Source of the DNA: Candidatus Microthrix parvicella Bio17-1
Lineage (GTDB): Bacteria > Actinomycetota > Acidimicrobiia > Acidimicrobiales > Microtrichaceae
DNA length: 64,000 nt
NCBI RefSeq assembly: GCF_000299415.1
Contig: NZ_AMPG01000001.1
Span: 1,364,001 to 1,428,000, forward strand
Reading direction: 5' to 3'
The position numbers and the translations under genes are program-made. Below the pieces are notes generated by a model. It made no database searches and was not told where the DNA came from. It was given only the letters and a program-made list of their open reading frames with translations. Position 1 is the stretch's first letter. Each line of letters begins with the position of its first letter. Positions 18,522 through 38,134 of this stretch are shown here, piece after piece.

Positions 18522-19403
18522 TCACTTCTTGATACGAGCCCTCACTTTTCGAGCCAGGCGTTCGATCCGGCCGCCACCCGACGTCTTCGCCAGCGCCTCG
18601 GTGGCCTTTGCGAGGGCTTCCTCCGCAATCTTCCTCAGTTCAACTGAATTCTCCGACGCCGGAGCCGCTGCCGGACGAGGCTTCTTGGCAGGCACCACCC
18701 GGAGCACCGGCAGGTCTCGTTGAACGAAAACCGGATCGAGTTTGTAGTCGGTTCGCTGGGAGACCTGCGCACGGATCTCATTCTGGGCCGGCACCGGGTC
18801 GCCCCAGGTGGCGTAGAGCTTCATCGCCGTGCACGCAATCGGGTTCAGCCCATCGTTCGCTATCGCCTCCCACACCGCAGCTGCCGTGCCCACCGTGTGT
18901 TCCGTCCGGTAATCATCAAAAACCACAATGCCGTCCTGGCGCAACATCTCCTTCGCCGCAAACGTGTCGCCGCGAACATGCTCGTACATGTGCGAAGCGT
19001 CGATGTGTACCAACCGACAAGACCCCGCCGACACATGATCGGTGATCAGCGAGGACAGCCCACGGATGATCTCCGGCAGTTCATCATGAAAGGCCAGGTA
19101 GTTCGACTCAAACTCATCTTGTGAAAGCGAAGCGTACGCCCGCCTCACATCGTCCCGAATCGTCTCCTCACTCCCGGCGACGTCAAAAAGGTCACAAACT
19201 GTCAGGCGCTCGCCGTCGCGCAGGAAGCGCCCCAGATGAATCGCGCTCTTGCCCTTATATACACCCACCTCAACCAGATCCGAGGGCTCCTGGGTCCGAC
19301 TCTGCCATTCAAGCAGCCACTGGAAAACCAGTTGATCGCCATACGACAGCCATCCGGGCACATCGTCCAACTTCTTGGGAAGGTCCTTGCCAACATCAAT
19401 CAT
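18522..19403 (-). CDS. Class I SAM-dependent methyltransferase, surface-island copy 1
   Basis: 293 residues. LVEVGVYKGKSAIHLGRFL is motif I for SAM binding (about residues 42-60), with VCDLFDV, the segment LVHIDASHMYEHVRGD (about 132-147) and IVVFDDYRTEHTVGT after it. This fits the Methyltransf_24-type family used in polysaccharide or cell-wall O-methylation. The C-terminal 60 residues are an Ala/Pro-rich linker and a basic amphipathic helix ending RIERLARKVRARIKK, which could touch membrane or a partner. It is clearly paralogous to the gene at 37283: both begin PKKLDDVPGW and share SCR-[LY]-[VI]-HIDASHMY and the ATWGDP element. It is 55 bp downstream of the TagF-like gene on the same strand. 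Confidence 0.85.
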   Translation of the reverse strand: MIDVGKDLPKKLDDVPGWLSYGDQLVFQWLLEWQSRTQEPSDLVEVGVYKGKSAIHLGRFLRDGERLTVCDLFDVAGSEETIRDDVRRAYASLSQDEFESNYLAFHDELPEIIRGLSSLITDHVSAGSCRLVHIDASHMYEHVRGDTFAAKEMLRQDGIVVFDDYRTEHTVGTAAAVWEAIANDGLNPIACTAMKLYATWGDPVPAQNEIRAQVSQRTDYKLDPVFVQRDLPVLRVVPAKKPRPAAAPASENSVELRKIAEEALAKATEALAKTSGGGRIERLARKVRARIKK

Positions 19404-19458
19404 ACCAATTCATCTTCTTTCACAGTGGGAGTTGGGAGTCGACCTCCGTAGGCTACTC

Positions 19459-21672
19459 TCAACCCGGTCGCGTCAGATTCCACGTAGAGAGCGCGCGCGG
19501 CTCATCGAACCGGGATACAGGCGGCTCCGGAGACTCGCCCAAGAACACGCGCTTGATCACTCGTTCGGTGGCATCCCCATCATCAAACTCACAGAATCGA
19601 CCGCGAAAGACGCGCAGCAGCTCCTGAGATTCGTCCGAGTCGAACTCACGGTCACTCAGCACTCCAACCAGCTGCTCCATCGACTGAGCAGTAGCGCCAG
19701 GGGGCTCCGCAAGAATGTCAAAGTACGTACCCCGAGTTGTCCGATATCGCTTCCAGTCGGGCGCGTAGATGACGATTGGCCGACCCAAGATGGCAAAGTC
19801 GAACATCGTCGATGAGTAGTCACAGATCAGCAGATCCGAAGCCAAGTAGAGCGGCGCCACTTCCGGCCAGTCCGTCACATCAATGACACGGCCTTCTTCA
19901 GTGAGCCGCTCGGCACTCGACGTGTCCCGGTACGAGTGGTGTCCTCGGATCAACAATGTTGCATTTTCACCCAGAGCCTCCAACACAGCCTCCGGGTCCA
20001 GATCCAGATCAAACTCTGTGTAGCCATCGCGATAGGTTGGTGTATACAAGACGCAGAAGGATTCATCGGAGACTCCCAGACGATTCCGGACGTCCGAAGC
20101 CATACCTCTCGGAGGATTCACCAACACATCATTCCTCGGATAGCCAAACTCGAGAATTTCATGGTTGCCTGGAAAGGCCCGGGCGAGAATCTCCGTTGAG
20201 TACCGATTCGAAGAAAGGTCAAAGTCCCAAAACTTTATCCGACCAAGTAGGTTCCAAAAATTCATGTGGTTGGCCGCAACCGGATATGCCTGCATATCCA
20301 TCCCCATGAACTTCAGAGGCGTGCCATGCTGAGTCTGCAGGTGAACCTGCCCCTCTCGCTTCAGAAGCGAGTTGGGGAAGTTGACATCATTGACGAAGAA
20401 CTTCGCAGTCTTCATCAACTGCTTGTGGTCGTCACTACCCATGGTCACGAACTCGTAGTCTGGGATGCCGTCCAACTCGTCGACCTCAAGTTGCTTGAGC
20501 AGCCACACCGCACGGACCTTCGGGGCCCACTCTTTCAACCCCTCAGCTATTGCCAGCGGATTGCCTCGTGGCTCCCTACCCCACATGGTTGTAAAGACTG
20601 CCAGGTTCTCATCGATTGCCGGCAGCACGAGCGGGCTGGATCTCGCCTGCTTCAAAGCTCGCTGGATTTTGGGCTTATACTTGTTGCGGATCTTGACTCG
20701 GTACGAATTTGCCAGCTTTAGCGTTTGGAAAGAGCGATAATCTCCCTGAACAAGGAAGCGATACTTCAATCCTTGCGAGTTGAGTTGAAATTGGTGCTGC
20801 GTTGGCAGGTGCCGAGCGAGTACGGCTGAAGCCCTGTCGAAGAACTCCTTTCTCAGCTCAGCGGGGAGACGCTCGGGGCCCTTCGCCAAGACCGCCACAC
20901 AGTGATTCGCCGACCTATCCCAAATTTCGTCACGCCAGGGCTCAAGGCGCTCATCATGATCGAAGCGTTCCAACAGAAGATCGACCTGATCAATAATCTG
21001 CATGTGTCTCGCATCGGCTGTCCGAAGGATACTTCCCTTGACTCGCTGCCGGTACATCACACAAACACGATCCAGGAGGGCTATTGAGTCAGCCAGGCAG
21101 AGAACGGGATAGGTGAAAGGAACGTCCTCGTAATATCCAGCTGGAAACGTCAGATGATTCTCGTTGAGAAACGAACGCTTGTAGGCCTTGTTGTGTGCGA
21201 TGTTGAGAATTTTGAGAAGGTCTGGGCAGTCTTGCAACCGGATCGGGTCGTGATGCAACCCGAGCAGGTAACCCATCTTGTTTCGAACCTTCCTATTATT
21301 CCAATAGAGGCGAGCATAATCGTAGAAGATCACGTCGGCCTCGGTGCTCCTACACCTATCGAGAATACTGCGAATTGCTCCCGGCGCGAAATAGTCATCG
21401 CTATCGAGAAACGCTACATACGTGCCGGTTGAGTGCGCCACACCAAGATTTCTTGCTTCTCCAAGCCCGAAGTTTCGCTCGGGGCGCACCACCTTTACGT
21501 TGTCGTGCTTGCCCACCAGTTCTTGAACAATTTCGTAGGACCGGTCCGTCGAGTGGTCTTCAACGATGACCACTTCCACCGCATTGTCGGCCTGGCTGAC
21601 GACTGATGTGATGCACTGTCGAACATACTCGGCCACGTTGTACACTGGAATGACGATTGTGAGATATGCCAT
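19459..21672 (-). CDS. Two-domain GT2 / CDP-glycerol glycerophosphotransferase (TagF-like), copy 1
   Basis: 737 residues. N-terminal GT2 domain (1-~220): LTIVIPVYNVAEYVRQCI, VVIVEDHSTDRSYEIV, and AFLDSDDYFAPGAI with its DxD. C-terminal CDP-glycerol:poly(glycerophosphate) glycerophosphotransferase domain (~345-720): HLQTQHGTPLKFMG, DFDLSSNRYSTEIL, EFGYPRNDVLVNPPRG, VLYTPTYRDGYTEF, LLIRGHHSYRD and LLICDYSSTMFDFAILGRPI. It probably builds a glycosylated poly(polyol-phosphate) chain at the inner membrane face. Its base composition is visibly more AT-rich than that of its paralogue at 32106, which has the same domain order and many identical motifs, suggesting a different history. The downstream neighbour is the methyltransferase at 18522. 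Confidence 0.9.
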   Translation of the reverse strand: MAYLTIVIPVYNVAEYVRQCITSVVSQADNAVEVVIVEDHSTDRSYEIVQELVGKHDNVKVVRPERNFGLGEARNLGVAHSTGTYVAFLDSDDYFAPGAIRSILDRCRSTEADVIFYDYARLYWNNRKVRNKMGYLLGLHHDPIRLQDCPDLLKILNIAHNKAYKRSFLNENHLTFPAGYYEDVPFTYPVLCLADSIALLDRVCVMYRQRVKGSILRTADARHMQIIDQVDLLLERFDHDERLEPWRDEIWDRSANHCVAVLAKGPERLPAELRKEFFDRASAVLARHLPTQHQFQLNSQGLKYRFLVQGDYRSFQTLKLANSYRVKIRNKYKPKIQRALKQARSSPLVLPAIDENLAVFTTMWGREPRGNPLAIAEGLKEWAPKVRAVWLLKQLEVDELDGIPDYEFVTMGSDDHKQLMKTAKFFVNDVNFPNSLLKREGQVHLQTQHGTPLKFMGMDMQAYPVAANHMNFWNLLGRIKFWDFDLSSNRYSTEILARAFPGNHEILEFGYPRNDVLVNPPRGMASDVRNRLGVSDESFCVLYTPTYRDGYTEFDLDLDPEAVLEALGENATLLIRGHHSYRDTSSAERLTEEGRVIDVTDWPEVAPLYLASDLLICDYSSTMFDFAILGRPIVIYAPDWKRYRTTRGTYFDILAEPPGATAQSMEQLVGVLSDREFDSDESQELLRVFRGRFCEFDDGDATERVIKRVFLGESPEPPVSRFDEPRALSTWNLTRPG

Positions 21673-21891
21673 CGGTGCATCCTAGCAGGTGGACTTAGCG
21701 GTTGCTATTAAATGGGGGCGCCTTGGAAGCAGCGGCGAGCAGTTGATTGGGACGGATGGTCCAGCTTGCCGATGATGGAGCCAAGCTGGCAGCCCTGAGC
21801 GCTCAGGCGATCCCTCAGGGCACCCACGGGCGAGAGCAGTCCGGTGGATTCCTTCCCGTGTCCCTACTGTTGGCGCTCAACGAAGCGGAGA
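21673..21891. other. Intergenic stretch with nested inverted repeat
   Basis: No gene seen in these 219 bp. It holds a nested dyad: GCCCTGAG at 21792-21799 pairs with CTCAGGGC at 21814-21821, and inside lies the perfect 12-bp palindrome CTGAGCGCTCAG at 21795-21806. The dyad has no T-tract and lies between the 3' end of the TylF-like gene and the start of the TagF-like gene, both on the minus strand. It could be a transcript structure or a protein-binding site. Confidence 0.35.
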
Positions 21892-22613
21892 TCACAATAA
21901 ATGCACGAGCGTATAGGTCAGGCCGTATGCTATGTAATCGAATTCGAATCCTGTCTCATCCACGAATTCCATAAATGCCTTATACTCATGGTCTTCCCAC
22001 GTTCGGTAGCCAATCAACTCGTCGAACAGGATCCAAGTTCCCGAGCGAATCAAGGGCCGAAGCACCGTGAGAACTTTGCGAGTTGAGGAGTACAGGTCGC
22101 AATCCACACGCAGGAGTGATATCGGCTGTTCATTGTGCTGAGCAAGCCAACCTGGCAGCGTGTCGTCGAACCAGCCTTTGTGCAGCTCTACGTTGTCGGG
22201 CACATTGGGGAGCGCACCTTGGACCTCGCCGAATGATCCTTTCCCGTGGTGACCCCAATCCTCCGGAAGACCTTCGAATGAATCAAATCCGTGAATGGTC
22301 TTATGTGGATAGATTCCAGCCAACGTCCTGGTGCTGGCCCCTTGGTACACGCCGAGATCGAGGATCTGGCCATCGAGGTGGATGATTTCTTCGCAATCCA
22401 CCGATGATTCCAAACCATCAGGTGATGAAGATGAGCACGCGATTTGGAGGATGCCAGTTGTGCGACGGCGTCCGGGACGTCGATCTTCAATCGAGGCCCT
22501 GACGAAGCCACGCCAGCCGGATTGCGCGCCGCTCGGCGTTCGAGTTCGTCAGCTACCTCGTTGGTGAGGAACCTGGCAGCTCGTGCCGCCCAGCCCTTGA
22601 CTGCCGACTTCAC
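21892..22613 (-). pseudogene. TylF/macrocin-type O-methyltransferase, apparent frameshift near 22413
   Basis: The body of the protein, 21892-22413, reads ILDLGVYQGASTRTLAGI, HGFDSFEGLPEDW, LLRVDCDLYSSTRKVL and WILFDELIGYRTWEDHEYKA, which is the TylF/MycF family that methylates sugar hydroxyls. The natural-looking N-terminus is in a different frame: from a GTG at 22613 it reads VKSAVKGWAARAARFL and continues with high GC3 codons to about 22415. One base appears to be missing beside a run of three T on the minus strand (22412-22414). This may be a true mutation, in which case the gene is broken, or a sequencing/assembly error, in which case it is one intact protein of about 240 residues. A TTG at 22413 could in principle restart the body. 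Confidence 0.65.
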
Positions 22614-22812
22614 ATGAACTCCGTCTGGGGTTCTTTGGGTTGTGGCTGGTGGTGCGTACCACCGGGAGCTTCCGGGTCGATCGCGCGATGTGTGACACCA
22701 CCCGGGTCTTCCCTCTTGGGACGTTATCGGGTCGCAATTCGACTGTCGGCTATTGGACCCTTGGGTTACAAGCCGGCTGCCTCGATCGGCCGACCGCTCC
22801 CGGAAAGGCCGC

Positions 22813-23814
22813 CTACGCCGAAGTCGGGTGCCCGGACGTCGCGAACTTCACCGGTTCAACCATCGGCTCTGTGAGCCGACGAACAGGTCGACTCATCGCC
22901 AGCAAGGTGAACGGCACCATCGCCAGCAGGAGCGCCAGCCTCGCTGCCGGTCGATCTTCGATACGGGGTGACAACCAGAAATTGAGGACGAGAGTCACGG
23001 GAAGATGAATCAGGTAGGCGTACAAGGTGTACCGGCCAAGCTCTGACAACCGGCCAGCCCGGCGCTCCGGCACGAGTGACATCACCGCACAGGACACCAC
23101 CACGCCGATCACCAGAACCAAAATCCGTATCCCAGCGGAACGGGTCGCAGAACCGCCGAGCTCGGCGTAGGTCAGACGGTGTTGAAACCACACGTTCTGA
23201 ATTCTCGCCGCATTGGCCCAGACGACGGAACCGGCAACGGCGACCACCGCGCCTGACGAGACGCGCACCCAGGGCCGGCGCAGCCAGGTCTCAATCTGAG
23301 GAAGTATCTGCATCCCAAAGAGAAACACCGGAAAGAAGGCCAGCGTTCGCATAATCGAGTAGTGATTCGGGATCAAACCGCTGACCGCGACGCCAAGCAG
23401 CGCAAGGGGCCACAGCAACCAGTCCACCACCCGCCGGCGGCCAACAACCGTTGCCAGCAGCCTCCAAAAGAACAACGACACCAGAAACCAGAGCCCGAAG
23501 GGAACGTAGCCCAAGGTTACCCGAGGGCGGTCGGCCACCAGCGCCACCACGCTGAGGTTGAAGGCCGCAAACATGACGAGCGGCAGGATCAGGCTTCCCC
23601 AGCTCTTCCGGAAGGTCAGCATCGGAGCGGCGGCCGGCTTCACGAAGCGACCCGACAACATGACGAACAGCGGCATGTGGAACAAGAAGATCATATCGCC
23701 GGAAGGGTCCGAGACCCCTGGGTAGAAGCCTCGTGCCAAACCCCAGTGGCCGGCGACCACCAGGCAGATTCCCACCACCCGTACGTTGTCGTGCCAAGCC
23801 GAGCGCTCAGTCAC
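22813..23814 (-). CDS. Acyltransferase 3 family membrane protein
   Basis: About 333 residues with 9-10 hydrophobic helices. The N-terminal SAWHDNVRVVGICLVVAGHWG contains the conserved His of helix 1, and FLFHMPLFVMLSGRF is the second signature of the acyltransferase-3/OafA-like family, which acetylates surface sugars using cytosolic acyl-CoA. It ends in a basic tail. I start it at GTG 23814 because GGAG sits about eight bases upstream; a TTG at 23895 would add 27 residues that look non-homologous. Position within the polymer island suggests it O-acylates the same polymer handled by its neighbours. Confidence 0.85.
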   Translation of the reverse strand: MTERSAWHDNVRVVGICLVVAGHWGLARGFYPGVSDPSGDMIFLFHMPLFVMLSGRFVKPAAAPMLTFRKSWGSLILPLVMFAAFNLSVVALVADRPRVTLGYVPFGLWFLVSLFFWRLLATVVGRRRVVDWLLWPLALLGVAVSGLIPNHYSIMRTLAFFPVFLFGMQILPQIETWLRRPWVRVSSGAVVAVAGSVVWANAARIQNVWFQHRLTYAELGGSATRSAGIRILVLVIGVVVSCAVMSLVPERRAGRLSELGRYTLYAYLIHLPVTLVLNFWLSPRIEDRPAARLALLLAMVPFTLLAMSRPVRRLTEPMVEPVKFATSGHPTSA

Positions 23815-24119
23815 CAACGGAGCTCCGGTCCACCAACGGCAAACCGTCGCAGGTTGCGCTGCGCCGGGGGCACAACCGTTTACCTGATCCGGCAAGCTCG
23901 GGTTGCATGTCCATTTCGGCCATCCCCCACGGTAACGCTGCTGGCACCCGGCCCGAAATTTTCGGAGCTGAGCGAACGCGGCTTGCCTCCACCGTGCTCG
24001 GTAAGATCGCAGACCACTCCCAGACCGTCACCGAACACTAGGTGAATGCGCCTGTCACGTTGATCGTCACTGGACACCACTTGCGTCAGGTTTTTTCGAG
24101 AAACATCACGAAGGGCACC

Positions 24120-25532
24120 ATGGCATTGGTGGGGCTTGGCTGCGTTGGCGCGTGGGCGGTGCTTGGAAGCCCTGGGTTACCGGCCGCACAGCAGGTGACC
24201 GGGGCCGTCGTCGTGCTTGGAAGCGCCGCCCTCCTGGCGATCAAGCTGCGGTTCCTTCGCTTGACTGGTCAAAGCAATCAGAGCCTGGCCCAGCAACAGC
24301 AGCAGATGCTCAAGACCCAAGGCGCTGAACTACGACGCCTTGGTGAGGATCTCACGCGTGCCAAAACCGCGTTGGAAGCAGCCGCTCAGCATGCCGCAGA
24401 ATCCCGCAGCCAGGTTGCGACCGCCACCAGGACCGCCAACGATGCAATGGAGTTGGCCGTCCACACCGGCACAACCCTCCGCCATGAGATCGAAGGCCGA
24501 CTGACCGATGTCGGTGCCGTCGCACCGGTGGCGGTGAGAGATGCGCCTCACCCGCTGCTCAGCGTTGCCGTGCCGGGATTCAACCGTCCGTCCCTCCTTG
24601 AGGAATGCCTGGCATCGATCGTGGCCGAGTTGGAGTTCGTGGAACCAGGCACTGTCGAGATCGTCGTCACCGACGACCAGTCACCCGACCGTCGGGCCGC
24701 AGCCGTGGCGGCTGAGTTTGCTCGGATGCACCCATTCGTCGGTCTCCGCATCAACTCGGAGAACCTCGGTCTGGAGGCCAACCTGCTGGAGGCTGCAAGG
24801 GGATGTCGCGGTGAATACCTTTGGATCTTCGGCAACGACGACCGCTGGGTGCCCAGCGGCTTTGCTCAGGTACTGGAGGACATTCGGGCTGCTCCGGCCG
24901 ACGTTCTGTTGTTCGAAAAATCTCGAATCGGTTTGGATGGCCGCCCGCTGCCCGACCGCGAAGGCAACGCTCCAATCAAGTTGGACCCAGGCCAGGCGCA
25001 TCGCTTTGACCGCTTGGTGGATGTGGGCACCTACAACGGGGTCAATTCATCACTGGGGTGGATCAGCCAGGTGGTCATGCGCCGCAAACCGTTCATGGCG
25101 GTCGACCCGGAGCCATACCTGGGACTCACGATGTATCCCCAGCTGGCGATGATGCTGCAGGCGTTCGGCGACCGCCCGCTGTTCTACCGAAATCATCGTG
25201 CGGCGCTGCATCGTAGCCCCACCGCCCCGCAACGCCTCGCCGAACTTCTCGGTCGGCGTGAAGCCACCTTCTGGCAGGTTGGCCGTGTGCAGCGTGCACG
25301 CTGGTTCGGCGCCAGCTACGCGGCCCTTTTGCAGCGCGTCGTCGATCGTAGCGGCCTTGAGACCACGGACTTCGCAAACCACGTGGAGCGGCTCTGGACC
25401 AAACAGCCCCTGGTGGATTGGGTGGAGTCGAACTGGCGAGAGGGACTGGCCGATGGTTTGGAGCTGCCTGGAGAGTGGCTGAGCGACGCCCGCCGATTCT
25501 TCGCCATCCTTGGTCGCACACCTCCCGAGTGA
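24120..25532 (+). CDS. Membrane-anchored GT2 glycosyltransferase with coiled-coil stalk
   Basis: 470 residues from ATG 24120, preceded by GAAGG; a GTG at 24042 in frame is a possible earlier start. Two hydrophobic segments lie in the first 50 residues (MALVGLGCVGAWAVLG; VTGAVVVLGSAALLAIKL), then a Gln/Ala-rich coiled coil of about 90 residues. The GT2 domain comes next: LLSVAVPGFNRPSLLEECL, VEIVVTDDQSPDRRAAA, NLGLEANLLEAARGCRGEYL and WIFGNDDRWVPS, where NDD occupies the DxD position. It resembles glycosyltransferases of polysaccharide clusters and is divergent from the acyltransferase. Membrane anchoring with a long stalk is unusual for the family. Confidence 0.8.
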   Translation: MALVGLGCVGAWAVLGSPGLPAAQQVTGAVVVLGSAALLAIKLRFLRLTGQSNQSLAQQQQQMLKTQGAELRRLGEDLTRAKTALEAAAQHAAESRSQVATATRTANDAMELAVHTGTTLRHEIEGRLTDVGAVAPVAVRDAPHPLLSVAVPGFNRPSLLEECLASIVAELEFVEPGTVEIVVTDDQSPDRRAAAVAAEFARMHPFVGLRINSENLGLEANLLEAARGCRGEYLWIFGNDDRWVPSGFAQVLEDIRAAPADVLLFEKSRIGLDGRPLPDREGNAPIKLDPGQAHRFDRLVDVGTYNGVNSSLGWISQVVMRRKPFMAVDPEPYLGLTMYPQLAMMLQAFGDRPLFYRNHRAALHRSPTAPQRLAELLGRREATFWQVGRVQRARWFGASYAALLQRVVDRSGLETTDFANHVERLWTKQPLVDWVESNWREGLADGLELPGEWLSDARRFFAILGRTPPE

Positions 25533-25623
25533 GCCTGACGACCACGAACTTTCGCTCGACTTTTGGTCAAACCCTCCTTAGCGTGCTGGTCGACAGCCAT
25601 GTATTTCATGAGGGGACCTTCGC

Positions 25624-26631
25624 ATGACCCGAAACGGTGACAGCCATCCGTATCGCACGAGCAGATCCAAGTTGTTCACTGTGTTCGCTGTGCTGTTGAT
25701 GATCGGAGGTTCGCTCGTCGCAACCTCCGCTCCCGCCGGCGCGGAACCCGGCAATCTTGCCGACATCGATGTGGCGGATATCGATGGCAGATACGTCGTC
25801 GCCGCACTCACCACCGGCGGCACCATCCAGGTCGAGGTGGTGACATGTTTGTCGACCTGCACGAAGCACGGCTGGTCCTCACTTGGTGGAGGATTCAAAT
25901 CGGTGAATGTTGAGTACCTCGCCGAAGGCCGCCCTGTCGTGATCGCCCGGCGAAATAACGGCGCCACCTGGTATAAGCGTGGGAGCTGCTCGGCGACCAG
26001 CTGCTCCTGGATCAGCTGGAAGGATCTGGGAGGCTCCGTCATCGACATCGCGACCTCAGCCTCTGGAGGCAATTGCGTTTTGCTGGCAGGTAAAAGTGCC
26101 ACCAAACGGGTCTATCAGGCCAAAGTCTGCGCCAATACCGTGCAGGGATGGGGTTACACCGGCGGTCAGCTCGACAACATCGCCGTCAGCGGTGACCGCA
26201 TCTTTGGGACCACCTCGTCCCAACAAATGTGGTGGTACAAAAATGGGCTCTGGAAGGGGGCGGGCGGCAACACCATAGAACCCGCAGCCAAATTCGGGGA
26301 TGGAGAATTGTGCGGGCTTTCTCAGAGCAGCCGGAAACTGTGGTGTGTTAACACATCCACCAACAAGTGGACCAATCACGGTGGTTACTGGCGCAAGCTC
26401 GACGATGACCGCACAATCGGCATCGGAGGAGGTTGGGATGCGTGGGTTCTCGATGGTGAAGCGAACGCCGGCAACAACTACGAGGATAACGTCGCCACCA
26501 GTTTCGGCGGCAAGGTCAACGAAGTGGCATGGACCGACACCAAGGATTTCATGGTCGGAATCGGGTCGGACTATCGCCCCTGGTATCAGGACACTCTCGG
26601 GACGAGCCACGGGACCTGGGCGACGCTCTGA
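25624..26631 (+). CDS. Secreted propeller-like protein, paralogue 1 of 4
   Basis: 335 residues. Signal peptide KLFTVFAVLLMIGGSLVATS, cleaved near AGA-EPG. The mature chain is made of repeated 40-45-residue units, each ending in a W-x(2-4)-G-G or LGG turn: HGWSSLGGGFKSVNVE, SWISWKDLGGSVIDIA, QGWGYTGGQLDNIAV, GLWKGAGGNTIEP and NKWTNHGGYWRKLDDD. Most units carry Cys pairs (CLSTC, CSATSC) likely to form disulphides outside the cell. This pattern of Trp and Gly-Gly blades resembles PLL- or tectonin-like lectin propellers, but that is an inference. The start ATG follows AGGGGACC. First of a tandem set of four in the surface island. Confidence 0.75.
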   Translation: MTRNGDSHPYRTSRSKLFTVFAVLLMIGGSLVATSAPAGAEPGNLADIDVADIDGRYVVAALTTGGTIQVEVVTCLSTCTKHGWSSLGGGFKSVNVEYLAEGRPVVIARRNNGATWYKRGSCSATSCSWISWKDLGGSVIDIATSASGGNCVLLAGKSATKRVYQAKVCANTVQGWGYTGGQLDNIAVSGDRIFGTTSSQQMWWYKNGLWKGAGGNTIEPAAKFGDGELCGLSQSSRKLWCVNTSTNKWTNHGGYWRKLDDDRTIGIGGGWDAWVLDGEANAGNNYEDNVATSFGGKVNEVAWTDTKDFMVGIGSDYRPWYQDTLGTSHGTWATL

Positions 26632-26752
26632 GCCACTCCTTCCCCCCAACATCTGGGGTGGCGTCGGAACCCCGACCTTGTGACCGACAGCATCTTCATG
26701 AACCCGGCGGCGTGACCCAGCGGCTCCACTCCCTCCAACGAAGGGCCGGCAC

Positions 26753-27736: not shown

Positions 27737-27878
27737 GCACGTCCCGAGCGTGGAATCGATGACCAGGGCCATCTAGGGATCGGCGCCACTCGCGGGATTC
27801 CTTCGACCTCGACGGGCAAACAGATTCATGAGTAGCGTGACCGTTTACGACCGACCGAAGTCCAACAAGGGAGTTCCC

Positions 27879-28856: not shown

Positions 28857-28898
28857 CTCTCGCTCCGGTGTAAGCCGGTAGGCGACGCTCTTTCCTCA

Positions 28899-28929
28899 AC
28901 GGGCCGACCACGCGACGTGGTCGGCCCGT
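28899..28929 (+). terminator. Hairpin terminator after propeller paralogue 3
   Basis: A perfect 14-bp stem (ACGGGCCGACCACG, 28899-28912) with a CGA loop and its complement at 28916-28929. It lies 43 bp past the stop of the third propeller gene. A near-identical stem core follows paralogue 4, so it is inherited with the duplicated unit. There is no long T-tract, as is common in high-GC actinobacteria. Confidence 0.75.
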
Positions 28930-28984
28930 CGCACGTTCGCCGCCACGGCCACCGCCACACGCTTTGACTGAGAGTGGCGGTTCG

Positions 28985-29004
28985 ACTAGCCGCGATCCGG
29001 CACG
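28985..29004 (+). repeat. Left terminal inverted repeat of the IS
   Basis: 20 bases beginning ACTAGCCGCGATCCGG, matching the inverted right end with two mismatches across the aligned stretch. The adjacent outer bases do not pair with the right flank. Confidence 0.75.
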
Positions 29005-29207
29005 TTTCTCCGGTGTTGGCGGCCTGAAAGCCGTTTTGGTGTGAGGGGGGTTGGTATCGGATGTGGTGGGGTGCTCGTGGCGGGTTCAGAGGGCTGCTAC
29101 CCGGCTGTCCAGTGTGTTGAGGTGTGTTCGGGTTGGTGTGTGGGGTCGGTGAAGTAGCCCGGCCGAAGGTTCGGGCTGGTGGACTGGCTGTCTGGAGTAG
29201 GTGACGG

Positions 29208-30701: not shown

Positions 30702-30789
30702 CCCAGCCTCCTTGTGTGTCTCGACAACCACAAGTTTGCCGGAACGGAGCGCATTTGTCGCGTCCGAACCTAGTTCTTCACGGTTCTAC

Positions 30790-30809
30790 CATGCCGGATC
30801 GAGGCTAGT
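30790..30809 (-). repeat. Right terminal inverted repeat of the IS
   Basis: Bases reading GCTAGT at the outer edge, the complement of the left repeat. It ends 69 bp ahead of the start of propeller paralogue 4, so the IS replaces or displaces that gene's upstream region. Confidence 0.7.
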
Positions 30810-30878
30810 AGTGAGGCAAGGGGCTCTGTTCGAAGTGTGCCCCGACAGACCACCCAAACCTGACCACGAGGAGTTCAC

Positions 30879-31865
30879 ATGAGCCGAACGTCCATGGCCA
30901 AGCCACAACGTCGCAGGCTAAGCCTGCCGTTGAAGTCGTTCGCAATACTACTGATGCTTGGGGGCTCACTGGTTGCCACGTCGGGTACGGCAAGCGCGGC
31001 GCCCCGGCCAAGCAGCCTCGCCGACATCGACGTCACCTCCGCCGGCAAGGGTGTCTACGTCGTTGGAGCGCTTACCTCCAGTGGTGTCATCTCTGCCGAA
31101 GTCGTGGTGTGCCCGACCCGCACAACCAACTGCCAAAAGCATGGTTGGAAATCGTTGGGCGGAGGCTTCAAGTCCGTCGCTATGCAGCCGCAAAGCGGCG
31201 ATGGCGTCGTGGCGATCGCCCGGCGTTCGAACGGTGACACCTGGTACCGCCGTGGAACGTGTGCTGGAACCAGTTGCTCATGGGCAAGTTGGTACAGCCT
31301 CGGAGGCAAGGTCACCAAGGTTGCGACTTCGAATCGCAACAGCTGTGCCTACCTGGTTGGAACGAGTCCGTCCAGCTATGTGTACGAAGCCAAGATCTGC
31401 CGAGACAGCGTGACCGGCTGGAGTTCCACAGGCGGAAAGCTCAGCCAGATCGGCAGCTACTCGAACAAGATCTTCGGAACGTCTAGTTCCGGCGCACTGT
31501 GGTGGAACCATGGCTACGGCTGGACGAGCGCCGGTGGGCGTATCACCCAACCTGCAGTGAACATTGGAAAGACCACCCACTATTGCGGCCTGGCGGGCGC
31601 AGGACGCAACCTGTGGTGCGCCAACACCAGCAACTTCGAGTGGACCAACTACGGCGGATACTGGCGCAAGCTGGACGATGGCAAGACCATTGGTATCAGC
31701 AAGTACTGGCGAGCCTGGTCCCATGATGGCAGAGCAGCCACGAGCTACGGCGGCAATGTGAACCAATTGGCTACAAGCGGGGATTTGATGGTCGGGGTTG
31801 GTGCAGGTTACGGCCCTTGGTATCAAAACACCTACCGCCAGGCGAACGGTTGGCTGGCTCTCTAG
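30879..31865 (+). CDS. Secreted propeller-like protein, paralogue 4 of 4
   Basis: 328 residues. GAGGAGTTCAC precedes the ATG. Signal peptide LPLKSFAILLMLGGSLVATS. Blades HGWKSLGGGFKSVAMQ, SWASWYSLGGKVTKVATS, TGWSSTGGKLSQIGSY, YGWTSAGGRITQPAV and FEWTNYGGYWRKLDDG align one-to-one with those of copies 1-3. The C-terminus is WYQNTYRQANGWLAL. The IS end lies 69 bp upstream, so its promoter may be lost or supplied by the IS. A terminator hairpin at 31919-31951 closes the unit. Confidence 0.75.
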   Translation: MSRTSMAKPQRRRLSLPLKSFAILLMLGGSLVATSGTASAAPRPSSLADIDVTSAGKGVYVVGALTSSGVISAEVVVCPTRTTNCQKHGWKSLGGGFKSVAMQPQSGDGVVAIARRSNGDTWYRRGTCAGTSCSWASWYSLGGKVTKVATSNRNSCAYLVGTSPSSYVYEAKICRDSVTGWSSTGGKLSQIGSYSNKIFGTSSSGALWWNHGYGWTSAGGRITQPAVNIGKTTHYCGLAGAGRNLWCANTSNFEWTNYGGYWRKLDDGKTIGISKYWRAWSHDGRAATSYGGNVNQLATSGDLMVGVGAGYGPWYQNTYRQANGWLAL

Positions 31866-31881
31866 CCTCTGAGGGCTGAGC

Positions 31882-31951
31882 ACCCAGCGATTGCTGGGTC
31901 CACGTCATCTTCCCATTGAACGGGCCGATCGTCTTGTGCGGTCGGCCCGTT
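31882..31951 (+). terminator. Double hairpin after propeller paralogue 4
   Basis: Two hairpins. The first is ACCCAGC with a GATT loop and GCTGGGT (31882-31899). The second has arms AACGGGCCGATCG and CGGTCGGCCCGTT (31919-31951), whose outer ten pairs are perfect, followed by TCCGTTTCG. The second shares its AACGGGCCGA core with the hairpin behind paralogue 3, so the pair of terminators is homologous. The remaining 154 bp to the next start hold nothing recognisable. Confidence 0.7.
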
Positions 31952-32105
31952 CCGTTTCGTCCTCGCTCGACGGGTCGGCGGGGGTGTGGCGACCATCGCA
32001 GCATCCGAGGTCGGCTGCTGAGTGGTCCGTGATGGGGTCGCTGCTCCGACATCAAGGCGCCCCCAAATTCGGAGCGGTCATTCCCACGAGTAACTTGGTA
32101 GGCCC

Positions 32106-34304
32106 ATGGTGAACTTCAGCGTGATCATTCCCGTCCACAACGTGGAGGGCTACCTACGTCAGTGTCTGATGTCAGCGGTCGACCAGGTCGTCGACGGCGA
32201 CGAGATCATCGTGGTGGAGGACCACTCCACCGACCGCTCCCACGACATTGCCGTGGAACTCGCCGAGGCGAACCCGCAAATCAGGATCCTTCGACCCGAA
32301 GCAAACATCGGGCTGGGCCCCGCACGCAACCTTGGCATGGCGGAAGCATCCGGCGACTACGTGCTGTTTCTGGACAGCGACGACTACTACTATCCCGGCG
32401 CGCTCGACGCCATCCGCGAAACCTGCGACACCACCGACGCCGATCTGGTGATCTTCGACTACGAACGGCTGTATTGGAACGATCGTCGCTCCAGAAACAT
32501 CCTTGCGCGGCTGTTCGCAGACCGGCCTGATGTCCTCACATTGGCGGACGATCCCGAGCTACTCAAACTGCTGAACGTTGCCTGGAACAAGGCCTACAAG
32601 CGGGAATTCTTGGAAACAACCGCCCTGACGTTTCCCCACGGATATTACGAAGACATTCCCTTCACCTACCCGGTTATGGGCCTCGCCTCGTCGATTGCCA
32701 TGTTGGATCGGGTGTGCATGGCGTATCGGCAACGGCGTGGCGGCAGCATCTTGAGGTCGTCGGGGGAGCGCCACTTCGAGTTGATCGATCAACTGGAGCG
32801 CATGTTCGAGATCGTGGCGGAGCATCCCGAACTTCAGCCATTTGCGACTGATTTCTGGATGCGCGGCGGCTCACACGTGCTGGCCGTGCTCGCCGCCGGT
32901 GAGAGCCGCCTGCCCGCCAGCCGGCGAGCCGATTTCTTCCACAAGTCGGCCGCCGTTCTGGGACCCACAGCCCCTCCCATGTTCGAGCTCCCCATGACCG
33001 ACCTCGGGTTGAAGTATCGACTCGTGGCGATGAACAACTATCCGGCATTCCAAGCGCTCAAAGTGGTCAATGGCCAGCGAATCCGCGCCCGGAAGCTGAA
33101 GAAGAAGTTTGGTCCCAAACTGCGCGCGGCAGCCAACGCTGCAAAGCGCACCAGGCTGAACGAATCCTCTGCTGTCTTTACGTCGCTCTGGAACCGCCCC
33201 CCATCTGGCAACCCCCTGGCCATCTACCGGGCGCTGTCGGAGCACGCACCCCACATCAAGGGCACGTGGATCATCAGCGAGCGGTTTACAGACGACGTCG
33301 GCTCCCTGCCTCACGTCGTTGCAGGGAGCCGCGAAGCCCGGGCGCTCTGCCACTCCGCCAAGTTCTTTGTGAACGACGTCAACTTCCCGAACGAGTTGGT
33401 GAAACGGCCCGGTCAACTCGAGCTTCAAACCCAACACGGCACCCCACTGAAGTTCATGGGGCTCGACCTTCAGGCCTACCCGGTGGCTGCCAACAAGATG
33501 TCGTTCGGATGGCTCCTCAAACGCGTCGACCGCTGGGACTTCAACCTGTCGTCCAACCGTTACTCGACCGAGGTTTGGCGAAGGGCATTTCCCGCCGTCC
33601 ACGACATCCTTGAATACGGCTATCCCCGCAACGATGCGCTGATCAACCCAAACAACAAAGTTCGCGAAGAAACCAGAACACGGCTGGGAGTGCCAGAAGG
33701 GAACCTGGCAGTGCTCTACACGCCCACGCACCGCGACGGCGTGGGGCAATTTGATCTTGGCCTCGATGCAGCCGAGTTCATCGAAAGCGTCGGCGACAAC
33801 ATCACGCTGCTGATCAGAGGTCACTACTTCTACGACCCGAGCGACCGGGTTGAGGGCCTGGTGGACACCGGGCGGATCATCGACGTGAGCGACGACGTGG
33901 AGATTGAGCCGCTGTACCTGGCAGCCGACGTCATGATCTGCGACTACTCCTCCGCAATGTTCGACTTCGCCAACCTCGGCCGCCCCATCGTGATCTACGG
34001 ATATGACTGGGACGAATACCGGTCCCAGCGGGGCACCTACTTCGACATCATGGCCGAACCCCCTGGGGCTGCCGTGCGCACCATGGACGAACTTGTTGAC
34101 GTATTTACCTCGAAGGCCTATGACAGCGACGATGCCCGAGAGCGGCTTGCACGATTCCAGGCGATCTTCTGTGAGTTCGACGATGGGCGAGCGGCCGAGC
34201 GCGTGATCAAGAAGTTCTTCCTCGATGACGAGCCTGAGCCACCGAAATCGCTCCACGGACCCCGTCCGGCCCTCAGGACCTGGGAGTTGAACCGCCCCGG
34301 CTAA
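32106..34304 (+). CDS. Two-domain GT2 / CDP-glycerol glycerophosphotransferase (TagF-like), copy 2
   Basis: 732 residues with the same domain order as the gene at 19459. GT2: VIIPVHNVEGYLRQCLMSA, IIVVEDHSTDRSHDIAV, NIGLGPARNLGMAEASGDY, and LFLDSDDYYYPGAL. TagF-like: LQTQHGTPLKFMGLDLQAYP, NLSSNRYSTEVWRRAFPA, EYGYPRNDALINPN, VLYTPTHRDGVGQFDL, LLIRGHYFYDPS and MICDYSSAMFDFANLGRPIV. Both copies end in a short segment R-[AP]-L-[SR]-TW-[NE]-L-[TN]-RPG. It should polymerise a phosphodiester-linked polyol chain, perhaps alternating with sugars added by its own GT2 domain. Its composition is high-GC like the chromosome, in contrast to copy 1. Confidence 0.9.
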   Translation: MVNFSVIIPVHNVEGYLRQCLMSAVDQVVDGDEIIVVEDHSTDRSHDIAVELAEANPQIRILRPEANIGLGPARNLGMAEASGDYVLFLDSDDYYYPGALDAIRETCDTTDADLVIFDYERLYWNDRRSRNILARLFADRPDVLTLADDPELLKLLNVAWNKAYKREFLETTALTFPHGYYEDIPFTYPVMGLASSIAMLDRVCMAYRQRRGGSILRSSGERHFELIDQLERMFEIVAEHPELQPFATDFWMRGGSHVLAVLAAGESRLPASRRADFFHKSAAVLGPTAPPMFELPMTDLGLKYRLVAMNNYPAFQALKVVNGQRIRARKLKKKFGPKLRAAANAAKRTRLNESSAVFTSLWNRPPSGNPLAIYRALSEHAPHIKGTWIISERFTDDVGSLPHVVAGSREARALCHSAKFFVNDVNFPNELVKRPGQLELQTQHGTPLKFMGLDLQAYPVAANKMSFGWLLKRVDRWDFNLSSNRYSTEVWRRAFPAVHDILEYGYPRNDALINPNNKVREETRTRLGVPEGNLAVLYTPTHRDGVGQFDLGLDAAEFIESVGDNITLLIRGHYFYDPSDRVEGLVDTGRIIDVSDDVEIEPLYLAADVMICDYSSAMFDFANLGRPIVIYGYDWDEYRSQRGTYFDIMAEPPGAAVRTMDELVDVFTSKAYDSDDARERLARFQAIFCEFDDGRAAERVIKKFFLDDEPEPPKSLHGPRPALRTWELNRPG

Positions 34305-34376
34305 ACCGAGCGGTGTCAGGGTGAACACCCGGCCCGATGAGTGGCGTCAAGATTGAACGTCGTCTAGCATGAGGCT

Positions 34377-37139
34377 GTGCCCTCTTCACGAAACTCTCGA
34401 ATCCGGCAGGCATCCGCCCTTGCCAAGGCGGCGGTCGTCATCGCCGGCCTTGCGTTCGCCGTTCCGACGCTGTCGCTCGCGCTCCAGGTGGCTGCCCCCA
34501 CTCCAGCGGGAGCTGCCCTGCAGTCATGGAACGGCAAGGTCACCAGGGTGCTCGATGGCGACACCTTGGAGATCGATGGCGGTGGCAGTCCTCAGAAGGT
34601 CATCCGACTGGCGGGCATCAACACCAATGAGAACCACGAGACACCAAAGTGTTACGCAGACGAGGCGACGGCGCGCCTGTCCAGCCTGGTGAACGGCAAA
34701 CAGGTCACGCTTCGGGCTCAGCGTGCCAATTCATACACCAAGGACAACCGAGCGATCAGGCACGTGTTCGTCAACGGCACCAACGTCTCCCAGTTGATGT
34801 TGAAGGAGGGCTACGGCATGCCCATCATCTTCACCGAGAACAACGAGTACGACTACGCCGCCGACTACGTGACGGCGTTCTGGGAGGCCAACCGGGCGGG
34901 CGTCGGGATACACAACCCCAACCTGTGTGGGGCAGGTCCACGAGCTGACTTCCCCATCACCATGAGCACCAACGGCGATGCTGACGGCGCAGAAGAGAGC
35001 AACCTGAACGGCGAGTACGTGCGGTTGCGCAACCACGGAACCACCCCCTTCGACCTCACCGGCTGGCAGTGGAAGGACAGCGCTCTGGAGTTCTACAACT
35101 TCCCGTCAGGTACCCAGATTTCACCCGGAGGTGCACTCACCATTCACACCGGGCAGGGCACCAATACCGCAACCGACCAGTACTTCGGGAAGACCTCGTC
35201 GATCTTCTCCGGGATCGACGGAGCGTTCCTTCTCGATCCTCAGCGTGACATGCGGGCATTCAACTTCTGGCCATGTGTCGGGCCCTGCAACGACACGGCG
35301 GCGCCCAACGTGGAGATCACCAGGTTGGATACCGCACCATGGGGCACCAATGACTACTTCGACCTGACCAACCGCGGAACAACCACCGTGAACCTTCAGG
35401 ACTGGCGCCTTGAGTCCTATCCCCACATCAAGACCATCGACGCACCCATCACCCTGGCACCCTCCGCCACCATTCGGGTCACGATCGGCCCAGGCACCGA
35501 CTCGCAAACCGGACTGTTCATGAACCGTTCGGCACCGATCTTCGACCCTGAACCGGTGGGCGACTCGGCATTGGCCATCGATTCACTTGGCAATGTGGTC
35601 GCTTGCAAGGCATACGGCAAGACCACCTGCGCGCCCCATCCAGGTAAGGCCCGGTCCGAGCGCATCGGCGCCGACTTCAACGGTGATGGCTGGGCAGACG
35701 CGGCCCTCAGCGCTCCCGGGGAGGACATCGGCTCGGTCAAGAACGCCGGCGCCGTCAACGTGCGCTACGGGGAGGACCCGGGCATCACCCCGGATCGTCC
35801 GGTCTTCGGCATAGCCCGGCTGCGCCCGCAGTTTCTCAGCCAATCCGGGCCCATCACCGGCGCAACAGAAACCAACGACTACTTCGGAGACGTGACCACA
35901 TCTGGTGACTTCAACGGAGATGGGTATGACGAACTGGTCATCGGCGTTCCTCGCGAAGACGTGGGTTCGCAACGTGATGCCGGCGCAATCCACGTGCTCA
36001 ACGGTGGACCGGCAGGCCTGGACGCTCGACGCGAACGCTCCTTCGACCAGAACGGCCCCATCCCCGGGTACGCAGAGTCGGGAGACCGATTTGGCGCTGC
36101 GCTGGCGGCCGGCGACTTCAACCATGACGGCTTCGATGACCTGGTGGTGGGGGTTCCCGGCGAGAACGCGTCCCAGGGCTACCTGGCCTTGATCTACGGC
36201 ACCGCCAACGGACTGAACGACTCGGGCAGCGTGTCCATTGGCCAGTACGGACCAGTGGTGGGAGTCGCCGAAACCGGCGACGAGTTCGCTGCATCCCTGG
36301 CTGCGGACGACTTGAACGCCGACGGCTTTGACGACCTTGCCATCGGGGCACCCGGCGAGGCATTCGGAACCAGGACGAACGTGGGCATGTCGCACCTTCT
36401 GATGGGTTCTGCCAACGGGCTCACGACCGCTGGGAACTACGCCGTAGCTCAAGGGGACGGCGCGCCCGGGGCGTGGGCCGGCGGCGAGCGTTTCGCCGCC
36501 TCGTTGGCGACGGGTGACGTCACCGGCGACGGCGCCGCAGACCTGGTTGTCGGCACACCGGGCGACTGGGTCCGATCCCAGCGATCGGCCGGGAGTGCCA
36601 CCGTGTTACACGGGTCGCCGTCGTCGAGGGTTGGCACCAACGCCAGCGTGTTGACACAGTCGGGAGCACTCCCGGGCGGCGCAGAAGCGAACGACGCAGT
36701 AGGCGCATCGGTGGCCGTTGGCGATCTCGACGAGGACGGCTACGGCGACGTGATCGTCGGTGCTCCGGACGAGAGCTTCGGGTCCAGCACCGGCGCCGGC
36801 ATGGTGGGGATCGCCTTTGGTGCAGAGGGTGGGGTGAGTGGATCAGGCTCGATCGCTCAGGGAACCGCCCCACTCACCGGCTACGGCGCCGAATGGGGCG
36901 ACCACTTTGGCGCCCACCTGGAGATCCTTGATCGAAACGGCGACGGCTTGGCGGACATCACCGTGGGAGTGCCCGGCGAGAACCTGGGCTCCATCGTCGA
37001 TTCGGGAACCATGCACTTCTTTGACGGCGCCCGCAACCGGGCCGGTACCTCACCCCAGCGCCCTGGGGGTTCATCCATCGCCTATTCCCAGAACGCCTTT
37101 GGCGGAGGTATCGAGCCGGGTGACGCATTCGGTTCATGA
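34377..37139 (+). CDS. Secreted multidomain protein: SNase-like, lamin-tail-like, seven FG-GAP repeats
   Basis: 920 residues from a GTG. Signal peptide ending PTPAGA near residue 46. Residues ~49-185 match a staphylococcal-nuclease fold: VTRVLDGDTLEI, VIRLAGINTNE, and DNRAIRHVFVNGTNVSQ. Residues ~190-400 hold two lamin-tail (LTD) type domains: YVRLRNHGTTPFDLTGWQW and YFDLTNRGTTTVNLQDWRL. Residues ~430-900 carry seven FG-GAP repeats with calcium loops (DFNGDGWADAALSAPGED, DFNHDGFDDLVVGVPGEN, DLDEDGYGDVIVGAP), an integrin-like propeller. In the nuclease the Asp usually found in the VDTPE segment is Asn here (INTNE), so activity is uncertain. It lies 72 bp after TagF-like copy 2. Confidence 0.85.
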   Translation: MPSSRNSRIRQASALAKAAVVIAGLAFAVPTLSLALQVAAPTPAGAALQSWNGKVTRVLDGDTLEIDGGGSPQKVIRLAGINTNENHETPKCYADEATARLSSLVNGKQVTLRAQRANSYTKDNRAIRHVFVNGTNVSQLMLKEGYGMPIIFTENNEYDYAADYVTAFWEANRAGVGIHNPNLCGAGPRADFPITMSTNGDADGAEESNLNGEYVRLRNHGTTPFDLTGWQWKDSALEFYNFPSGTQISPGGALTIHTGQGTNTATDQYFGKTSSIFSGIDGAFLLDPQRDMRAFNFWPCVGPCNDTAAPNVEITRLDTAPWGTNDYFDLTNRGTTTVNLQDWRLESYPHIKTIDAPITLAPSATIRVTIGPGTDSQTGLFMNRSAPIFDPEPVGDSALAIDSLGNVVACKAYGKTTCAPHPGKARSERIGADFNGDGWADAALSAPGEDIGSVKNAGAVNVRYGEDPGITPDRPVFGIARLRPQFLSQSGPITGATETNDYFGDVTTSGDFNGDGYDELVIGVPREDVGSQRDAGAIHVLNGGPAGLDARRERSFDQNGPIPGYAESGDRFGAALAAGDFNHDGFDDLVVGVPGENASQGYLALIYGTANGLNDSGSVSIGQYGPVVGVAETGDEFAASLAADDLNADGFDDLAIGAPGEAFGTRTNVGMSHLLMGSANGLTTAGNYAVAQGDGAPGAWAGGERFAASLATGDVTGDGAADLVVGTPGDWVRSQRSAGSATVLHGSPSSRVGTNASVLTQSGALPGGAEANDAVGASVAVGDLDEDGYGDVIVGAPDESFGSSTGAGMVGIAFGAEGGVSGSGSIAQGTAPLTGYGAEWGDHFGAHLEILDRNGDGLADITVGVPGENLGSIVDSGTMHFFDGARNRAGTSPQRPGGSSIAYSQNAFGGGIEPGDAFGS

Positions 37140-37282
37140 ACCGGCACGGGCTCAAGGTGTGCCCGCGGCAGGGGCCTGAGGAAACCTCGCGAGTGCTCGA
37201 ATGCAAGCCGCACCGTGATAATTTCGGCGATCCCACTCCGGTGGCGCCACCCAGTACACCCTTCACCCCCGAGGTAATTTCG

Positions 37283-38134
37283 ATGGCAACAACAACTCCA
37301 AAAAAGTTGGACGATGTACCCGGCTGGATGATCCGTGCCGACCAGTGGCTCTTCGAGCGCATCCTGAGCTTCCAGGTTGGCTCTCAGGCACCAGGCGATC
37401 TCGTGGAGTTGGGGGTGTACAAGGGGAAGAGCGCCATCGTCATCGGAAGGCACCAGCAGCCGGGCGAGACGTTCACCGTGTGCGACCTGTTCGAGGACGT
37501 CACCTCAGAATTGACACTGCATCAAGCTGACCGAAATGCCTACAGAACACTCTCGGAAGAAGAGTTCGCAAACAACTACCTGGCCTTTCATGACACGCTT
37601 CCAGAGGTCGTTCGGGGCCTGAGTTCGGCCATCGAAGATCACGTCACGGCCGGAAGCTGTCGCTACATCCACATCGACGCTTCCCACATGTACGTAAACG
37701 TCAGAGAGGACGCCGCTGCAGCCCGAAGGCTGCTGAGGAAAGACGGTGTGGTGGTCTTCGACGACTTCCGAACCGAGCACACCATCGGCACGGCCAATGC
37801 GGTCTGGGAAACCATCGTCAACGACGATCTGCATCCGATCTGTGCCAGTGAGCGCAAGATGTACGCCACCTGGGGTGATCCGGAGCCCTACCAACGCGAA
37901 CTGATGGAGCGTCTGGCCGAGTCGGGTGAATTCCGGGCCGATCTTCATACGATCGTCCGTGAGGAACGCGTGATCCGGGTGGTTACGAACAAGGCCAAGA
38001 AGGCGGCAGCAGCCCCTGCGGCCGCCCCTGCAAAGACGGGCGCAACACCCGTCCCAGCCAAAGCAGGAGCCTCGGTACCGATCAAGCAGTTCCTCAACAA
38101 GGTTGCCAACAAGGTTCAACGGCTGACTGCCTAG
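37283..38134 (+). CDS. Class I SAM-dependent methyltransferase, surface-island copy 2
   Basis: 283 residues from ATG 37283, with GAGGTAATTTCG upstream. It opens TTTPKKLDDVPGWMIRADQW and carries LVELGVYKGKSAIVIG (motif I), TVCDLFEDV, CRYIHIDASHMYVNVRED and VVVFDDFRTEHTIGTAN. It is a clear paralogue of the gene at 18522 in the same relative position at the opposite edge of the island. Like that one, the tail is an Ala/Pro/Lys linker ending in a basic helix FLNKVANKVQRLTA. An upstream in-frame opening to 37136 overlaps the nuclease gene's end and is not used. Confidence 0.85.
   Translation: MATTTPKKLDDVPGWMIRADQWLFERILSFQVGSQAPGDLVELGVYKGKSAIVIGRHQQPGETFTVCDLFEDVTSELTLHQADRNAYRTLSEEEFANNYLAFHDTLPEVVRGLSSAIEDHVTAGSCRYIHIDASHMYVNVREDAAAARRLLRKDGVVVFDDFRTEHTIGTANAVWETIVNDDLHPICASERKMYATWGDPEPYQRELMERLAESGEFRADLHTIVREERVIRVVTNKAKKAAAAPAAAPAKTGATPVPAKAGASVPIKQFLNKVANKVQRLTA

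Follow-up and report, generated by a model that had tools for sequence, protein, structure and literature searches.

A candidate envelope-glycopolymer locus with paired TagF-like and methyltransferase genes and PLL-type propellers in Candidatus Microthrix parvicella

Candidatus Microthrix causes sludge bulking, and one region in the genome of strain Bio17-1 raises the question of whether genes for building a surface polymer, and a family of secreted proteins encoded among them, belong to one system. The window, i.e., the whole stretch of 64,000 nucleotides that was analysed, comes from an assembly of 4.2 Mb in 13 contigs that is 95% complete. With confidence that falls a little short of even, we read the island within it as a locus for an envelope glycopolymer, in which a TagF-like gene and an O-methyltransferase gene were long ago duplicated together in inverted orientation, with lectins of the PLL type encoded between the two copies.

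Layout of the island and its duplicated edges

The island is bounded by a gene for a LigD-type primase-polymerase on one side and by one for an EamA transporter on the other, and its GC content is mostly 0.53−0.65, compared with about 0.66−0.68 around it. Four genes run leftward, on the minus strand: a membrane acyltransferase 3 (22813−23895; Pfam Acyl_transf_3, E 7.7e-20), which could O-acylate a glycan; a methyltransferase of the TylF/Methyltransf_24 type (21892−22413; Pfam TylF, E 2.8e-15); a fusion of a GT2 domain with one of the CDP-glycerol:glycerophosphotransferase type, here TagF_L (19459−21672; Pfam Glyphos_transf, E 3.3e-101, and Glycos_transf_2, E 3.8e-36); and a SAM-dependent methyltransferase, MT_L (18522−19403; Pfam Methyltransf_24, E 2.2e-18). 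The TylF-like reading frame, of 173 residues, is probably frameshifted or truncated; a different frame holds a plausible N-terminus (region 21892−22650), and the gene looks frameshifted, either by real decay or by an assembly error.

The remaining genes run rightward on the plus strand, from a GT2 glycosyltransferase through to a large membrane protein, with one insertion element as the only exception. The GT2 enzyme (24042−25532) carries a long N-terminal extension ahead of its Glycos_transf_2 domain (residues 174−305, E 6.1e-18), and is followed by the secreted propeller proteins P1 (25624−26631), P2 (26753−27736), P3 (27828−28856), and P4 (30879−31865). Then come a second GT2/TagF-type fusion, TagF_R (32106−34304; Glyphos_transf, E 1.9e-102, with a match to a solved TagF at E 6.1e-56); a secreted protein with SNase, two LTD, and FG-GAP domains (34377−37139; Pfam E 4.8e-9, 2.1e-22, and 4.1e-55, respectively); and MT_R (37283−38134), the sister of MT_L. 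Two further genes are of uncertain membership, namely one for an OpuAC-type substrate-binding protein (38153−39262, 18 bp downstream of MT_R; Pfam OpuAC, E 5.2e-21) and one for the large membrane protein (39285−41447), which has no Pfam match and, by reading, is possibly of the GT-C type. The OpuAC-type protein has its glycine-betaine-type binding domain after a Pro-rich N-terminus and a probable transmembrane helix, and no adjoining permease gene was seen.

A sequence-only reading of this DNA had named a set of genes between 18522 and 38134, and all were found where it had put them; it missed a DDE transposase between P3 and P4. This belongs to an insertion element, which we take to be of the IS1380 type, on the minus strand at 28985−30809 (transposase 29208−30731; Pfam DDE_Tnp_1_4, E 5.9e-36) with imperfect terminal inverted repeats matching at 18 of 20 positions. 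Because the element ends near 28985 and 30809, P3 and P4 were neighbours before the insertion. The hairpin GGGCCGA...TCGGCCC occurs just twice in the 64 kb, compared with 0.03 expected, on the plus strand after P3 (28901−28927) and between P4 and TagF_R (31922−31948). Both copies lack a T tract and lie outside the 11 terminator-like sites of the window, and both are candidate terminators or attenuators: as terminators they would uncouple the lectins from TagF_R, and as attenuators they would favour an excess of lectin. The scans for signals were uninformative, since their counts did not exceed those in shuffled sequence (no promoters versus 4.6 expected, and 11 terminator-like sites versus 16.3). 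Elsewhere in the window, proteins encoded at 48219−49787 and 59907−60638 contain near-identical repeats, namely blocks resembling TPRs, each about 40 residues in length, and long runs of Glu-Pro.

At each edge of the island, a GT2/TagF-like gene is followed by a methyltransferase gene, once on each strand, so that the two halves point away from each other. Over their full length, TagF_L and TagF_R are 52% identical, and MT_L and MT_R are 57% identical over 229 residues, or 53% across the whole alignment. Within the genome, a TagF search drops from 868 bits for the second copy to 42 bits for the next match, and the methyltransferases match at only two places, so that the pairing is not due to chance.

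The sequence-only reading had proposed an inverted duplication, a claim that the trees bear out, in that both pairs come out as sisters rather than in distant clades. When the genomes of 84,980 species were scanned for TagF, 271 relatives were obtained, and 80 of these were kept. A quick tree was built from 31 of 136 TagF-like proteins (72% redundancy filter, rows cut at 900 residues), and a careful one from 22 of those 31 rows, after dropping five long, partial, or redundant rows and four by list order. In the latter, TagF_L and TagF_R are sisters among 20 sampled relatives with support of 100/99, and the 31-row tree has the same topology. Going outward, the pair is joined by the protein of an Acidimicrobiia MAG (L031; 100/100), and then by those of Streptomyces, Kribbella, and Frankiaceae. 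A nuclease-type neighbour common to TagF_R and the L031 protein had suggested that these two were orthologues, but a clade uniting them was rejected (p-AU 0.0025). For the methyltransferases, a 17-row tree of the two window proteins and 15 of 19 related reading frames, the other four being second readings of the same genes, likewise made MT_L and MT_R sisters (100/98). The two pairs are of similar depth, with paths of 1.18 changes per site for TagF and 1.07 for the methyltransferases.

With both pairs sister, in the same gene order and on opposite strands, the simplest reading of these sequences is an old joint inverted duplication that followed the split from the L031 lineage. That the symmetry is only apparent, TagF and methyltransferase having been duplicated or acquired separately, seems to us distinctly unlikely. 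Separate histories would sit well with the nuclease gene, which is present in the right half only and lies before TagF in L031 and after it in the window, and with the GC content, which is 0.54 in TagF_L and 0.61 in TagF_R, so that the halves may not share all of their history. They fit less well with two sister pairs of like depth in an identical TagF-to-methyltransferase order, or with a genome in which searches with the window proteins found no further copy of either gene. Across 19001−23000, which holds TagF_L and the TylF-like gene, GC is 0.53−0.56, well under that of the right-hand copy.

Of the segments that the sequence-only reading had considered specific to the paralogues, SNRYSTE held up within the sample, where it is found only in the two window proteins among 136 TagF-like proteins, and NRYSTE also occurs in a solved TagF, presumably of the S. 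epidermidis type. The DVPGW motif proved to be common to the relatives of the methyltransferase in the phylum, and the TW..RPG tail is partly shared with L031.

The secreted propellers

P1−P4 are proteins of 327−342 residues, including N-termini that by eye resemble signal peptides. They are 49−58% identical to each other and form two closer pairs, P1/P2 and P3/P4: P2 is 58% identical to P1, its tandem neighbour, P3 is 54% identical to P1 and 58% to P4, and P4 is closest to P3. The genome encodes two more, dispersed paralogues (C1:1517894 and C2:647891; positions 9837−10853 of locus L111 and 9843−10886 of L112), which are 36−41% identical to P1−P4 and have neighbours unrelated to polymer synthesis, such as iron-sulfur, dcd, helicase, and other genes, as judged from Pfam or by reading. 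The identity among all six is 36−59%, and eight Cys residues are invariant in 6/6.

No Pfam domain was found in P1−P4 at E 0.1. The Tectonin model touched two of the six paralogues (best E 5.8e-8), and this best match must come from a dispersed copy because P1−P4 are without a Pfam match. The AlphaFold model of P1, with a mean pLDDT of 72, is a seven-bladed β-propeller, in which the sixth blade is uncertain because residues 266−295 fall below 50. When this model was compared with the PDB by Foldseek, ranks 1−22 were all PLL or PHL lectins of Photorhabdus. VIA gave Z 23.2 for both PLL4 and PLL (PLL4 with 280 residues aligned at 3.0 Å), with PLL/PHL proteins at ranks 1−16, lectins throughout ranks 1−20, and the next propeller at Z 18.6. 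Regarding sequence, P1 alone had no match among solved proteins, and kinship emerged through a profile of the six paralogues (A4), which at E up to 10 gave five matches, all in the PLL family (E 1.7e-9 to 0.014). By model and profile, the propellers are a divergent branch of the known PLL lectin fold, and their identity to PLLs, only 16−20%, is too low to carry over specificity.

PLL lectins are described as binding L-fucose and O-methylated sugars in pockets such as the hydrophobic site 4H of PLL3, which is lined by the two tryptophans W251 and W265 (PMC6943638, PMC12203525). At the equivalent places, Trp pairs are found in blades 2, 5, and 7 of all six paralogues and in blade 4 of five of them, and blade 3 has an aromatic residue with a Trp in 6/6; blades 1 and 6 lack a pair. 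Blades were assigned manually from the model and the profile alignment, and the sites were considered without ligand. The Trp residues may be structural instead of sugar-binding.

The resemblance to Photorhabdus PLL, PLL2−5, and PHL, and to their relatives CV39L and BP39L, thus comprises seven blades by model, repeats of the W-x-SLGG type, and Trp pairs in several blades. The window proteins differ in their low identity, their signal peptides, their eight conserved Cys, their actinobacterial origin, and the adjoining polymer genes, and their lectin role is predicted. If this role holds, the range of PLL-type lectins, which are known in proteobacteria that infect insects and in relatives of these, would extend to an actinobacterium.

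A further parallel is with UmbA of the Streptomyces umbrella toxins, whose secreted propeller lectins read wall polymers, as is proposed for the window; binding of wall-linked teichuronic acid by propeller lectins is described (PMC13274773). Unlike UmbA, the window propellers have no trypsin-like domain that could be found. An umbrella-type toxin reading was dropped on this ground, separate neighbouring genes being possible in principle. A related idea is that the propellers act on others, as secreted adhesins or targeting lectins whose targets are fucosylated or O-methylated glycans on foreign bacteria, on fungi, or on grazers, and not the coat of their own cell. That would agree with the foreign glycans to which known PLLs bind and with the binding of competitors' wall polymers by the propellers of umbrella toxins (PMC6943638, PMC12203525, PMC13274773), and six copies diverged to 36−59% identity resemble a repertoire. 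Pfam, though, found no toxin or trypsin-like partner on the propeller proteins, and we hold the idea to be unlikely.

The TagF-like proteins and the methyltransferases

Both TagF proteins combine a GT2 with a Glyphos_transf domain by Pfam, and the His residues of the HGTP and RGH motifs, which we take to be catalytic, are retained in TagF_L, TagF_R, and the L031 protein; a Glyphos_transf domain with His residues of this type places them with the TagF-type polymerases. They fall below the cut-off of the NCBIfam TarF/TarL equivalog, reaching 192 and 190 bits versus 550 for TarF, and are therefore called TagF-like and not TarF. They share the GT2 and Glyphos_transf domains and the HGTP and RGH motifs with the teichoic acid polymerase TagF and the GT2/TagF fusions of Streptomyces and Kribbella, and differ from these in their own Acidimicrobiia branch with L031, their C-terminal TW-tail, the absence of a visible TagD, and their arrangement as a divergent sister pair. 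The 95%-complete genome gave three PF01467 hits, which by reading are CoaD, NadD, and a further protein; none of them was recognised as a TagD-like cytidylyltransferase, which leaves a supply of CDP-glycerol hypothetical. Elsewhere in the genome, on contig C10 (11880−14161 of locus L113), there is a third, divergent TagF-like protein of 459 residues; it adjoins a separate GT2 gene and has a repetitive tail of RFGRA units that touches Pentapeptide_3.

MT_L and MT_R are above the cut-off for Methyltransf_24 and, at 17.3 and 20.5 bits, below that for Pfam TylF (23 bits). MT_R was modelled with a 14-row alignment (A5; L145, L149, and one L115 fusion left out), giving a pLDDT of 84. By Z score, the structural neighbours of the model are MycF (18.5), SpnH (18.5), and NovP (18.2), all three sugar O-methyltransferases by structure title, followed by MeT1 (17.4), PFOMT (17.0), and COMT (15.6); the top of the Foldseek list holds MeT1, NovP, a mycobacterial O-methyltransferase, and CalS11. 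The model is thus nearest to the sugar O-methyltransferases, with a lead over non-sugar enzymes that is small (Z 18.5 versus 17.0 for PFOMT and 15.6 for COMT). Asp132, Asp160, and Asp161, presumably the metal-binding residues, are invariant in 14/14 rows, in keeping with the TylF/MycF/NovP-type fold. MT_R is accordingly a candidate sugar O-methyltransferase of the metal type. The fold and the invariant Asp residues are common to MycF, SpnH, NovP, and the window proteins, which differ in their identity of only about 16−21%, in falling under the Pfam TylF cut-off, and in having relatives in Streptomyces and Acidimicrobiales. Such relatives (E 1e-20) occur in 5/198 genomes of the order and 7/396 of the phylum, the source genome being counted in both, and in none of the four TagF-bearing genomes whose relatives were read does the methyltransferase gene adjoin TagF, although one of these contigs is just 4.4 kb long. 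A literature search on TylF in Acidimicrobi* found nothing.

A possible polymer and its reader

Given two sugar-type O-methyltransferases and an acyltransferase, the genes probably make a wall glycopolymer that is methylated and may be acylated too. A precedent for the methyl group is 3-O-methylated glucose on the wall teichoic acid of Streptomyces antibioticus (PMC13274773). The sequence-only reading had called the duplicated genes a polymer-decorating unit; the similarity to TagF and to sugar O-methyltransferases supports that description as to the enzymes, not as to the nature of the product.

In the mechanism that we propose, a lipid-linked polymer would be extended on the cytoplasmic side of the membrane by the GT2/TagF fusions, which would add a sugar and a polyol-phosphate from a CDP-activated donor, or some similar phosphodiester unit. 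MT_L and MT_R would place methyl groups on hydroxyls of the polymer's sugars, and acylation by the acyltransferase is possible. The four propellers, exported by means of their signal peptides, would bind the finished coat, or similar coats on adjacent cells, at sites between the propeller blades, where pockets lined by Trp pairs would fit methyl groups or 6-deoxy sugars. The island may therefore hold the genes for an O-methylated polymer and also for the lectins that recognise it, a link drawn because fucose and O-methylated sugars are ligands of PLL lectins and the methyltransferases resemble those acting on sugars. The two likenesses from which it is drawn, that of the propeller model to PLLs and that of the methyltransferase model to sugar O-methyltransferases, are what the modelling would newly contribute here. 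If the link is true, one short locus would serve both to write an O-methylated bacterial glycan, by sugar O-methyltransferases and a wall-polymer polymerase, and to read it, by PLL-type lectins; the cohesion of flocs and filaments could then be tested for dependence on a secreted lectin that binds the coat. A stronger version, namely a methyl-coded self-recognition in which the TagF/methyltransferase units write the polymer and the propellers read it, cross-linking the cells of one filament or floc, strikes us as improbable.

Several points stand against the glycopolymer-and-lectin model: in no other genome sampled does a propeller gene accompany TagF or the methyltransferase, dispersed propeller copies exist, no TagD was recognised, and the lead of the methyltransferase fold is small. 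The low identity to PLLs, the blades that lack a Trp pair, the TylF scores under the cut-off, the methyltransferase relatives lying apart from TagF, the GC difference between the TagF copies, and the hairpins, if they terminate, count against it as well. The sequence-only reading had proposed a search for conserved synteny with the propellers, and none was found. Of 80 neighbourhoods of TagF examined in other genomes, with flanks of up to 10 kb, none holds a propeller or this methyltransferase, and none of 10 genomes searched, L031 included, has a propeller, in a set without a positive control. The family is present in one of 198 genomes of the order, i.e., the source genome, which is also the only one in the genus sample. 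A two-pattern scan, which sees close relatives only and may omit the source genome, gave 51 stretches in genome contigs, and the pattern scan of viral contigs gave 23, likewise limited to close relatives; none of either was confirmed as a propeller. P3 had no match in 50,697 phage and 72,556 plasmid records, and the literature on Microthrix and lectins yielded no title on such proteins. Since synteny is not conserved, propeller and polymer are unlikely to depend strictly on each other.

A rival possibility is that the genes are accidental neighbours, with TagF and the methyltransferase forming an ordinary variable locus of the teichoic-acid-like kind, in which an unrelated, species-specific secreted family was expanded in tandem together with an IS element. 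We regard this as a real contender that nevertheless has the probabilities against it. Besides the restriction of the family to one genome in 198, it would account for the copies elsewhere with unrelated neighbours, the hairpins after P3 and P4, the IS element inside the cluster, and a GC content below that of the flanks. It leaves to coincidence that sugar O-methyltransferases adjoin an O-methyl-binding lectin fold, which fit each other, and that the genes from GT2 to the membrane protein all lie on the plus strand, the IS element apart. The suggestion that the duplication enclosed a new secreted family is weakened by the known lectin fold, the two copies with unrelated neighbours, and the absent synteny.

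One conserved neighbourhood was found, in two genomes, and it joins TagF to the SNase/LTD/FG-GAP protein. In L031, the gene immediately ahead of TagF, in the same orientation, encodes a homologue of 897 residues with 43% identity across 898 columns; in the window the protein directly follows TagF_R. The L031 contig starts 120 bases before this homologue, and searches of the assembled MAG gave no match to the methyltransferase (E 1e-5) or to a propeller. One half occurring without propellers, which the sequence-only reading had named as evidence against itself, is thus seen in part: TagF with the nuclease homologue, and no propeller detected in either contig or genome. The SNase-LTD part (E 1e-15) is present in 14/198 genomes of the order, including the source genome, and in the 13 others it lies in frames of at most 452 residues, compared with 923. 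By Pfam, SNase is found in the window protein, and the L031 homologue has LTD and FG-GAP but no SNase at E 0.01, which makes nuclease activity of the latter doubtful. Adjoining TagF in L031, at 5134−7554, are a LicD/methyltransferase fusion and a MobA-like nucleotidyltransferase, and the polymer of that organism may therefore carry another phospho-substituent.
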